Source: Xiphophorus maculatus (lineage: Eukaryota; Chordata; Actinopteri; Cyprinodontiformes; Poeciliidae). From it: a stretch of 64,000 nucleotides of DNA. The DNA is taken from the NCBI RefSeq assembly GCF_002775205.1, contig NC_036462.1:30545084-30609083 (forward strand). Direction: 5' to 3'. The notes below the pieces were generated by a model. That model worked only from the letters and a program-made list of their open reading frames with translations. It did not search any database and was not told where the DNA came from. The translations under genes and the position numbers were made by a program. Below are positions 44,957-64,000 of this stretch, piece by piece. Position 1 is the stretch's first letter. Each line of letters begins with the position of its first letter.

Positions 44957-47309
44957 GTACGTTGATGATAGGCCCAGGTACAGCCTCTGACGTTTAAGGG
45001 CGAAAGCTTTGCGGGGCTCTAGAGGTAGGTAATTTTAAAGACACACGTGAAAGTGTGACGTCTAAAACAAAGTTTTGACATTAAAGCATTTCTATCAACA
45101 GGACTGAAGTAAGGAAGAGAGAACATCCAGAAACATTCAAAGAAAAGAAATCCGAAAGCCTAGAGAACTGTTCAACTAAAGAAGCAACATTAACGTACAG
45201 TACTGAAACGAAACAAAATGACAAGCACAAGATCTTGTATTCTTCATTGATGACCCTTCCTTCCACTGCATCATCGTACACCTCCTTTTCAGCCATGTCC
45301 CAAACCTCACAATGACACAATGGACAAAAACAAAGGAAGTCGCAAACTGCTACTTCTTAGCAGATCCGTGGCTAGTTGTCAGAGCTGAGCGTCATCACTC
45401 ACTCTAAATTTTGCTCACTCTAAATTGCGTGTCAATCATATGAAAACCTTAAAAATCATAAATAGGCCACCCATTCCCTTCGTAGCTATGTGCTTTTAAA
45501 ATGTATGGTGATTGCGCCCTCTACTGGTGATTACGGAGCACTGGGATCAGTCAGACTGTTGGTATTGGAATAATAGAAGCAGCTGGGCTGCAGTACACTG
45601 CCGGTATCTCTGGCCCTCTCTGTTACTCATTGCTTCTTCAGTTGAATTGAATTGAATTCAAAAATACTTTGTTGATCCCAAAGTAGAGGAATAAAGCATT
45701 CTATCCCTGAAATTGTGATTCCTTAAAACCTGATGCTTCCAGTGTTCAGGTTCATTTTCTGTCTGAACACATAGGAAATCTTAAAAACTAAGTTTCTAGT
45801 TGTTTCCATCATTTATGTGTCTGTTAGGAGTGTTGAAATGGAGTTACAACAATGTGGGAAAAATAAACGTTTTCTCACCGAGAGAAGCTTAAAATGGCCA
45901 TTTCTTAAAATCTGATGCCTGTTTTGAATGTTCAGATTGATTTAGTGTCTGAGCACACCACGAAGCTTAAAATGGAAGTTTCTAGTTATTTTTGAACAGA
46001 CACATGTTTGTATGGGGTTAGTGCCAGTGGACGCCTTATTTCCATTTCCATCTGCCTCCTACAAACGAATTTGGAGTTGCTCTTTATTTCCCAAAGTTAT
46101 GGGGGGAGGAAAGGAGAGAATCGATATTTCAGCTGCCAGAAATAATCCGTTCCCCCTCCCTAACATGGGAACAAATTAATTTTCCAGAAAAGTCTTTAAC
46201 GGTGCTTATTCCTCTCTTCATCAACAACGAATCCTGTGAATTTGGTGACATTTTATCATTATTTGCCAAAGTTATGAGGGGGGAATTGTATATTTTAGCC
46301 ATCTGAAATAATCCGTTCCCCCTCCCTAACATGGGAACAAATTAATTTTCCAGAAAGTCTTTAACGGTGCTTATTCCTCTCTTCATCAACAACGAATCCT
46401 GTGAATTTGGTGACATTTTATCATTATTTGCCAAAGTTATGAGGGGGGAATTGTATATTTTAGCCATCTGAAATAATCCGTTTCCCCTCTATAACATGGG
46501 AACAAATGTTAAACAAGTCTTTAACTCTGTTTATTCCTCTCTTCATCAACAATAAATTATGTAAGTTTGAAAACATTTGCTCATTATTTGCCAAAGTTAA
46601 AAGGGGGAACCACATATTTTAGCTGCCTGAAATAACCTGTTCCCCAGACATAACATGGGAGATAATTGTTTTTCTCACAATCTCCTTTAACTGTTCTTAG
46701 TCTCCTCTTCATCAGTAACAAATCCTGTGAATTTGGTAATATATACCCTTTATTTACCAAACTTACTTGGGGGGGAACCATATATTTTAGCCACTTGAAA
46801 AAATTTGTTCCCCCTCCATGACATGGGACCTTATTATTTTTTCACAAACTCTTTAAACTATGTCGATTCCTCTCTTCATCAACAACAAATCCTGTGGATT
46901 TGGTGACATTTGATTATTATTTTCCAAAGTTAAAGGAGGAGAACCAAATACTTTAGCCACCTGATATAATCCGTTCCCACTCTATAACATGGGAATAAAT
47001 TAATTTACCAGCAACTCTTTAACTGTTGCTTTGGAAACATTTGCTCTTCATTTCACAAAGGTAAGAGGCTTTGGGGTTTAAACTATCTTTCCATAGCTAC
47101 CTTATATTAAAGTCCTGTAAGGATAAATACCAAACATAGTTTTCAAAATGTCACTTATTAACCATTATACAACATACATAAACCAACACACCACAGCAAA
47201 CTCAGGAACCTAAGGCAACATGCAAAGTACTGATTTTACTGGTTTTAGTTTTTGCCTAATTGATGATATTGTTTGTTTTTTTGCCCCTGTTTTATTTATT
47301 TTTCTGCAG

Positions 47310-47722
47310 GCTGAGGTTGATGCTGCTGTCCAGCTGCTACTGAAGCTGAAAATGGGCTACAAACAGATGACTGGTCAGGACTACAAAGCAGGACGTCAGT
47401 GAACGATGCTGCGCCGAACAACAGAACGGCAGCAGATTTGGCCGGTGAGGACGACACGGTGGATCCATGGACCGTTTCAACCACCAACGCCAAGGGAGCC
47501 GATTATGACAAATTAATAGGTGAGAGTCCAGTTAGCTTTAAGTCTGAGGGGAGGGATAATCCACCGTGGCGGATTGATAAACAATGCTTTCTCTTATTTC
47601 ATTTTATTTTGTATTTTTAGTGAGGTTTGGGAGCAGTAAAATCGACCAGGAGCTGGTGGATAAGAAGGTTTGTGGACAGAAGCCCCATCACTTCCTACGA
47701 AGAGGAGTTTTCTTCTCACACA
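47310..47722 (+). pseudogene. wars1: wars1 exon fragments, copy D
   Basis: The exons are at 47310-47519 and 47621-47722. The second exon lacks one A in the run near 47661, so it reads [13 protein letters not shown] in one frame here. Other units have the extra base, and D has many run-length differences, so this may be a consensus error. The WHEP exon is still frameshifted. Confidence 0.83.
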
Positions 47723-49167
47723 CATGTTTGTTCTTCCAATTAATAACTGACAGATTAATCATATTAATGCAAAACTTTTCACATTATAACTATGAACTTC
47801 AGTGTGCTTTATTTTAGTGCATAATTTAGCATAATGTTTTACATCTTTTGGAAATAAAAATGATTTCCGATTGTTTTCAGCTCCCTCACTGCAAAAACAC
47901 TAAACCTCACCACGTAGTTTTGGTCCAGTTTATTGTGCAAACATCTTAGTACATTTAGGATAAGACACAACTAACTTATGAGTAACTTTTCAGGAAGATA
48001 TAGGAGCTTGTTTTACGTCAGTGATTCCTTAATATTGATGGAAAAAATACTAGATTATTTCACTTATAACTGGGGAAGAATGTTTTGTTTAAGTATCATA
48101 TTCTGTGAATGGAACTAATAATTCTTCAGCAATTTTAAGGAATTATTTACTTAAACAAGCTTCTATATCTTGCTGAAAAGTTTAGTCATTTTTGTCTTAT
48201 TTTAAGTGTACTAAAATATTTTCACTAGAAACTGGACAAAAAGAAAAAAAAACTTGGTAAAGTGTTGTCTTCAAAATTCAACTTTACTGATCCCAAAGGG
48301 AAATTAAATGTTGTTGTGAGTCATATAGATTTGGTTTATGATAACATTACCCAAACCACGAATTTCAGTAATTACATTCAAACTAATCAAACTCAATTCT
48401 CAGAAAATAATCCTAAATAATAACTAATTAAAATGGATTTTAAACACAGAAATAGTCTAATTATGGTAAGGCTGAACAATATTACAATATCATGAAATAA
48501 GTGTCTTATATCTGTATCAATAATGTTTTTGTTAGTTTTTCTGTTTTCAATATTTGGAATACATTCTTGTTTAATCCATAGTTTTCACATCACAATGCTT
48601 TTTAATTTCTTTTTTTTATTCTAAGCAATTATGAGGAATGGAGGTGAAACCAGAAACTGCTGCTGCGCAAGTGACTCAACAGGCTGTTGCTAGGTAACCA
48701 AAGAGCGAGAACATTATTTGATTCCACCAACCTTGCTTAGCTAGAGAGAGGTTGAGTTGGCGTCAGCTGGGTCAACAGGCCCGTTTCCCCTTTTTCTGTT
48801 TTCGGACACAATGTTTCCTTTTGACCTGTGGTCCTCGCACCCTGCTGTGCCAGTCCATTGTCTCCCCAGTGTGGATTTCAGCCTTGGTGACATATTACCA
48901 GCTGAACTGTCTCCAATAGCCATCAGCTAAGCCGAGCAGCGTTCAGCCGTAAAGTTTGTTTTTATTCAAACTTCAGCAGTTTTTCTAGTTGTTCTGCTGA
49001 GGCAGTGACATCAATGTGTGACATCACGCAAATTGATGTCACAAAGAGCGATGCACACTTTGTGGAGCTAGAGGGCATCACAGAGCTGCACGCTTGAATT
49101 CTACGGTCATAACCATTGAAGAAGAGAGACAGAGAGCACGTAGTAGTATCTTAACAAGAGATTGAAA

Positions 49168-62506: not shown

Positions 62507-62572
62507 GTTGGTTCCATGAAACGTGAACTTCGAGTTCTGTCACCTTCATTCATTTTTATGCATTATCTAACA

Positions 62573-63108
62573 CAGTGGTTCGCAAACTTTTTCAGTGATG
62601 TACCCCCTTAAAAATATATTTTTAGTCAAGTACCCCCCTGACACAGGCAAAACATTTTTGGAATAAAAAAGAGGTACAGAGATCGTGGACGTAAATCCCA
62701 TTAAAACATACTTTTCCATGTACGTTCTGTACTTCGTCGGCTCTGGTTTTGCCTTATTTTTCACTTTATCTGTACTTTCAGCAGCATTGCTGCTACGCTT
62801 TAGCTACATCTCCATAGTTACAGTGTAATCATGATAACGACAGGTCGTTGACGAGTGCCCTGGGTCAAACTAACTTGGTGGGGGGGTCAGTTATATTTTA
62901 AAGGATATTGAAACTAAATACTGAATATAAAATTCAGTGCATGAACACACATTTATATTTTATCATACTTTTTACAAAATAATTTTTCCCAAGACTTATT
63001 ATGAGGAGCCTACTGATTTTTTAAAGATATTTTGAAAAGCTTCACGTACCCCCTGCAGTACCTCCACGTACCCCCAGGGGTACGCGTACCCCCATTTGAG
63101 AACCACTG
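62573..63108. mobile_element. hAT-type MITE at the E/F junction
   Basis: Same element and flanks, with a few run-length differences near 62590 and 62637. Confidence 0.85.
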
Positions 63109-64000
63109 TCATATCAACAGGACAATAGACAGGGGATGCAAATATTGGCTGGCTCAGAAATTAAAATGCATCCCCCCTACATTAATAGACTAGACAGTAA
63201 AGGATGATATAAAATGTTCTATATAACGGGCTTCTGTTTTGTAATGCTTTAAGCTATTATGGTGTTAAAAAGAAAATCGGGGGAATTTCAAACCATCTGC
63301 GGAGAACATTTTCATCAGACACTGAAAAACCTTCGACTCATACAGTCTGTCTCAATAAAGGTGTAAAAACCGTATTTATTTCAAATAATCTGCGAAATAA
63401 AACCCACCGAAGTTTCGTCTTCGGTCATATTTCAGAAATAATAACGCCTCGAATCAGAAACGAGGTAAAACAAGAAACTTTTTTTCTTCGCCGTTAGGCA
63501 CTTTTAACAGCAAACCAAACGCGACGTTTCGGTGAGGATCAACCTTCTTCAGGCCGTTTGCTGTTCCAACTGAGGAACTCAGTGCAACAACAACTATTTA
63601 TAAACAAAAACTCCAAACTTCGAATTTACAAAGTATTTACAGTCAGCCGGGCTCTGATTGGCCCTTAGGATTCATATTGTAACGTCATCTGTATCCATGA
63701 GGGAGGATGAGGATGATGATGTCATCATTCTGGGGAGGACAGAGCTGCAGACACACACTCTTCTGTTTCTGAATCTGTTGTGGGTAAAATGTGTTTTTCC
63801 TCTAAACCCTCCACTAGAAACAAAAATATAAGATCCTTATTTCAGAAGAACATTGCTACTACACCTTATGTGACCCACTACTGGAGACAGTTTTGTTTCT
63901 GATATCAAATGGTCAACGGTTTGGACTCTGCCCTCCAAATACATCATTAGGAACAAACCTTGTGATGTGTGCTTCAAACTTCTCCACTGGTGCTACCCTG
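63109..64000 (+). repeat. Tandem unit F (start only)
   Basis: This is the first ~890 bp of a further unit, collinear with 7084-7980. It ends in the L1 remnant at the window edge. Confidence 0.93.

Follow-up and report, generated by a model that had tools for sequence, protein, structure and literature searches.

A probable false second pass over a repeat array, laid on a real head-to-tail duplication of a serinc–tp53rk–aldh1l block

Tandem segmental duplications with intragenic breakpoints and microhomology are a known type of rearrangement. Another kind of duplication belongs to the assembly and not to the chromosome: homotype false duplications. Two papers (Rhie et al. 2021, PMC8081667; Ko et al. 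2022, PMC9516828) describe them near contig boundaries, with reduced consensus quality or read depth, and according to the first they are often about one read long. The locus described here resembles both. Like a tandem segmental duplication it has a head-to-tail join in the introns of two genes, the missing exons at its outer edges, and 0.75-3.3 isolated substitutions per kb between copies; it is unlike the ordinary case solely in its nested array and in a further join on another contig. Like a homotype false duplication it shows the sequence of what we take to be one locus twice beside a gap, and the consensus is poorer in one copy, where the differences are of error type (one-base indels number 58 in 23.3 kb, versus 3 in 12.8 kb). 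Judged from the assembled sequence, the artefact would fit that class, a homotype false duplication at a contig boundary. It would differ in being nested in a real, array-bearing tandem duplication, so that the false pass also changes track, and in its extent: the looped array would account for about 23 kb and the repeated junction and head for about 13-17 kb more, against the often about one read of Rhie et al. (PMC8081667).

The window is the whole stretch of 64,000 bases that was analysed, C20:30545084-30609083, in a genome of 101 contigs and 704 Mb in which contig C20 measures 32.9 Mb; 100 kb was examined on each side. From its gene content the DNA is that of a vertebrate, probably a teleost. 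Coordinates are relative to the window, negative to its left and above 64000 to its right, and C100 is an unplaced contig carrying another version of the region. Successive passes over the duplicated block are called c1, c2 and c3 and start at -13208, 33409 and 75860. The window opens with a first array, a clean pass (1-25383, + strand) made up of units A (1-9374), B (9375-18748) and C (18749-25383). The second array begins with a diverged head (40886-46639, +), which holds a nuf2-like exon and a reverse-transcriptase fragment and in which the switch zone treated below starts. Then come units D and E (46640-64000, +), in which A and B were most likely read falsely a second time, and directly after E, beyond the window, a partial third unit, F (65397-69531). 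Unit G is an array unit within the contig that follows the gap.

Between the arrays, a truncated aldh1l-type gene (28180-33190, - strand; the term covers L1 or L2, and the initial annotation has aldh1l2) with carrier and aldehyde dehydrogenase parts is joined at 33408/33409 to a truncated serinc, whose late exon (PF03348) lies at 34323-34643 on the + strand. The join is head-to-tail, from an aldh1l intron to a serinc intron, and the junction (33404-33413) contains 5 bp, TTAAT, present in both native flanks. Further right is tp53rk, with two exons (38080-40317, -) of which the 3' exon is open. Where are the exons that the truncated genes lack? A search of the 264 kb of C20 examined and of C100:60001-99800 located each of three formyltransferase exons a single time, at 112-114 kb, and each of two earlier serinc exons a single time, left of the junction at -18816 and -13461. 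The exon at -13461 is without a Pfam hit and is assigned to serinc tentatively, by its position.

Native sequence continues at both outer ends, and the junction is found on the independent contig C100 as well. The junction and the missing exons at both outer edges make this a real but ordinary head-to-tail segmental duplication with intragenic breakpoints. A probe spanning the full junction has at least three occurrences, at 33409, 75860 and C100:88151-90151, among the 40 of 654 candidates that were scored. The first two are identical. On its aldh side the C100 junction has 0.66 isolated substitutions per kb relative to copy 1, and on its serinc side 2.8-2.9 substitutions per kb relative to the three other versions; because it differs by substitutions, we take the join to be real. 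The real copies diverge unevenly: the array head has 0.75 isolated substitutions per kb, serinc-tp53rk 1.2-2.0 and the aldh block 3.3. The initial annotation had offered a tandem duplication of the array together with the aldh-tp53rk block as one source of the repetition. Such a duplication is there, but alone it does not make D-E a copy of A-B.

Contig C100 also contains, at C100:18609 (in C100:17000-22000), a second kind of head-to-tail join of the block, from 26925 to -15206. Since this join differs from the one at 33409, more than one rearrangement has taken place at the locus. The locus is dynamic, and its true copy number is not settled by the current assembly.

What, then, are D, E and F? 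Global alignment of 1-17351 with 46640-64000 gave 99.6% identity, with 24 mismatched columns against 54 indel events. Seventeen of the 24 columns fall within shifted patches at 13542-13548 and 14577-14590, and 51 of the 54 events are a single base long, which agrees with the first impression that the two arrays differ mostly in one-base run lengths. The same initial annotation had D tracking A and E tracking B in a right array that repeats the left. This was borne out at 28 diagnostic sites (in unit positions 1-3400, those at which at least one of A, B and C stands apart): D has the state of A at 27 and E that of B at all 28, and the correspondence extends to F, which has the state of C at all 28. 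Unit G is a different mosaic, agreeing with A at 21, with B at 24 and with C at 7 of these sites. The sole exception in D, at unit position 3129, involves a base private to A among the seven units.

Taken pair by pair, A and B differ by 13 substitutions and no indels, D and A (over 9.4 kb) by 16 indel events and 1 substitution, E and B by 41 indel events and 13 substitutions, and F and C (over 4.1 kb) by 7 indel events and 2 substitutions. Counted together, A-B-C and D-E-F differ by 16 substitutions, 14 of them isolated (0.62 per kb). Among the columns in which all five units of the window are present, 13 indel columns and no substitution are private to D, and 35 indel columns and 19 substitutions are private to E. 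Because D and E have these private indels whereas A and B differ by none, the right copy is the noisy one, and its noise is mostly of the sequencing-error type. The two arrays could also be alleles, both haplotypes having been placed in one scaffold, which would suit the N gap at the edge and the presence of another version of the region on the unplaced C100; the differences between D-E and A-B are, however, mainly one-base indels and not allele-like substitutions, and we consider this explanation very improbable.

The offset of about 46,639 bases between the arrays is constant inside the window, as first described, but it is not continued outside. The next join, at 75860, comes 42,451 bases after the one at 33409, with a 499-N gap between them, and the 264 kb of C20 examined contain no second period, so the proposed 46.6-kb higher-order period is not upheld. 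A 46.6-kb circle (extrachromosomal DNA or a circular clone) that was read more than once would produce both the constant offset in the window and a head-to-tail junction. Yet the block sits within a contig of 32.9 Mb and is flanked on either side by the missing exons, and the head that follows the junction differs from the serinc-tp53rk head of copy 1 by 9-15 substitutions in 7.4 kb (depending on the alignment) and by multi-base indels, which refutes a circular template. The post-junction sequence is that of the copy running into the native right flank (c3), with 0 substitutions, and not that of c1. We therefore rejected the circle, whose chances are close to nil. A plasmid or phage origin of the unique block was rejected too: megablast of 26000-41000 gave no phage record, and its only plasmid match was an 80-base aldehyde dehydrogenase stretch in 45 Pseudosulfitobacter plasmid records.

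Copy 1 was compared with the second pass over 36 kb, aligned in anchored chunks, and the second pass was found to change allegiance. Up to 44480 there are 14 clean substitution columns, with c2=c3 at 12 and c1=c2 at 2 (four further columns, in a messy patch at 42465-42468, were left out of the count). From 47519 to 51240 there are 24 columns, about nine of them inside a minisatellite, with c1=c2 at 23 and c2=c3 at 1. The switch zone is thus 44480-47519: the last copy-2 state is at 44480, indel noise is seen from 46188, and the run of copy-1 states begins at 47519. Against copy 1, the second pass has 3 one-base indels in the 12,779 bases before 46188 and 58 in the 23,343 bases after it, a contrast with a binomial p of 2e-8 for a cut that was picked after the data had been seen; moving the cut to 44480 gives 3 and 58, and moving it to 47519 gives 6 and 55. 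Because the real copies diverge unevenly, substitutions give only a modest contrast: 11 in 11.1 kb before the switch and, outside the two shifted patches, 8 in 25.1 kb after it (Fisher p 0.02). Of the 25 isolated substitutions after 44480, the two patches take up 17; the other 8 are divided among D (1), E (5) and F (2).

A run of 499 Ns, which presumably marks a contig boundary, occupies 69532-70030, 5.5 kb beyond the end of the window. The same junction region is found on both sides of it, with 0 substitutions over 30.3 to 41.0 kb; when the end of the left contig is compared with the start of the right one over 27575-41000, there are 5 substitutions, none of them beyond the right contig's first 2.7 kb. 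The aldh block preceding junction 2 matches that preceding junction 1 and not the outer copy: of 27 aldh substitution columns, the outer copy alone accounts for 22 and the start of the right contig alone for 3, and 2 are common to both of these. The serinc-tp53rk blocks after junctions 1 and 2 show 0 substitutions in 7.5 kb, and both differ from copy 1. From the shared aldh states and the identical serinc-tp53rk blocks, the end of the left contig and the start of the right one seem to be a single stretch that was assembled twice. The two contigs disagree from 47.5 kb, the right one passing through unit G toward the native aldh1l gene and the left one following A-B-C.

D-E(-F) are probably the assembler's false second pass over the left array, atop the real tandem duplication. 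An assembly loop, already among the origins first proposed, gives the best account of D-E through the switch of allegiance and the one-base indel noise, short of proof. The real block runs from the serinc intron through tp53rk, a nuf2 remnant and the coil/DUF2452 array to the aldh1l intron, joined head-to-tail at the 5-bp microhomology, and the chromosome carries at least two copies. The assembler would have been correct through copy 1 and on past the junction into the copy-2 head. In repeat common to both copies, between about 44.5 and 47.5 kb, it would have strayed into array-1 reads, so that the switch would be the assembler's and not the chromosome's, and it would have laid down A-B-C again, with poor consensus, as D-E-F before the contig broke off. 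The next contig starts within the same junction region, giving the junction and the copy-2 head twice with the 499-N gap between them. Several observations speak against such a loop: 41040 and 44220, in the head, already carry the copy-1 base; at 3129/49763 it is A that differs and D that agrees with the other five units; 28127 and 29684, where the right contig begins, have the state of the outer aldh copy; and the second pass does have substitutions, the 16 counted above.

Unequal crossing-over could instead have produced a real triplication whose middle copy has the head of copy 2 and the array and tail of copy 1, D-E-F being poorly polished beside the contig break. This predicts the mosaic observed, c2=c3 after junction 1 and c2=c1 in the array and before junction 2. 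An assembly switch would leave just such a mosaic. Triplication would also be in keeping with the other join of the block known from C100 (C100:18609), and the 8 substitutions outside the shifted patches could be real; contig ends can be noisy over genuine sequence. It requires a very young event, yet error-type indels are abundant. The noise sets in close to the switch point, and a clean first array beside a noisy second one would not be expected if near-identical copies shared reads evenly. We regard triplication as unlikely, though to be reckoned with. It is likewise unlikely that D-E-F are real in the sense of a very recent triplication, with few or no substitutions gained, at a locus whose coiled-coil/DUF2452 array and neighbours are being rearranged repeatedly (at least two different joins), the chromosome being caught just after an expansion step. 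The false second pass is preferred because the indels begin close to the switch, the second array is noisy where the first is clean, and an N gap lies nearby. Copy numbers read from the current assembly for tp53rk, aldh1l, serinc and the coil/DUF2452 units would then be inflated, and the false 46.6-kb period would be open to misreading as an amplicon or a circle.

The diverged head includes a stretch with a nuf2-like exon (41626-45221) that is absent from the following units, in which its flanks are adjacent (7386-8125, 8123-9756). Its exon at 43342-43590 matches the PDB Nuf2 chain 9n9g_F (E 3.8e-6), and is the basis of the tentative name nuf2; a second putative piece, at 43980-44225, matched no Nuf2 chain in the PDB and had no informative Pfam hit. 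A reverse-transcriptase fragment (42465-42986; PF00078, under the curated cut-off) adjoins the nuf2-like exon. Scanning the window with Rfam at the gathering threshold and for tRNAs gave no hits.

The array units carry a coiled-coil open reading frame, of 373 residues in unit A (2527-3648, +) and also open in the other units of the first array (B 11901-13022 and C 21276-22412, both +). All its Pfam hits were below the curated cut-off, and so we name it by its coiled coil. It is full length in seven of the nine units examined, D and E being the two exceptions: in D the match covers the last 101 residues only, and for E the ORF list has a 179-residue coil ORF, with no match above the search filters used.

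In unit A a DUF2452 exon (PF10504) is found in the stretch 6341-6574 (+). The central DUF2452 exon has at least 14 copies genome-wide, those found all lying on C20 or C100; as lower bounds, five are in the window, one is in the right contig, four are on C100 and four, inverted, are at C20 31.55-31.61 Mb. In units A, B, D and E neither the N- nor the C-terminal DUF2452 exon was found, and in unit C only the C-terminal one was. About 1 Mb off, C20:31547770-31606746 contains the array-end flank four times in inverted orientation (97-98% over 854 bases) and carries a DUF2452 gene in which both the N- and the C-terminal exons are present. Window 3935-4405 and its equivalents consist of a 14-codon tandem repeat that is open in several frames, and unit G differs in this repeat by one 42-base step.
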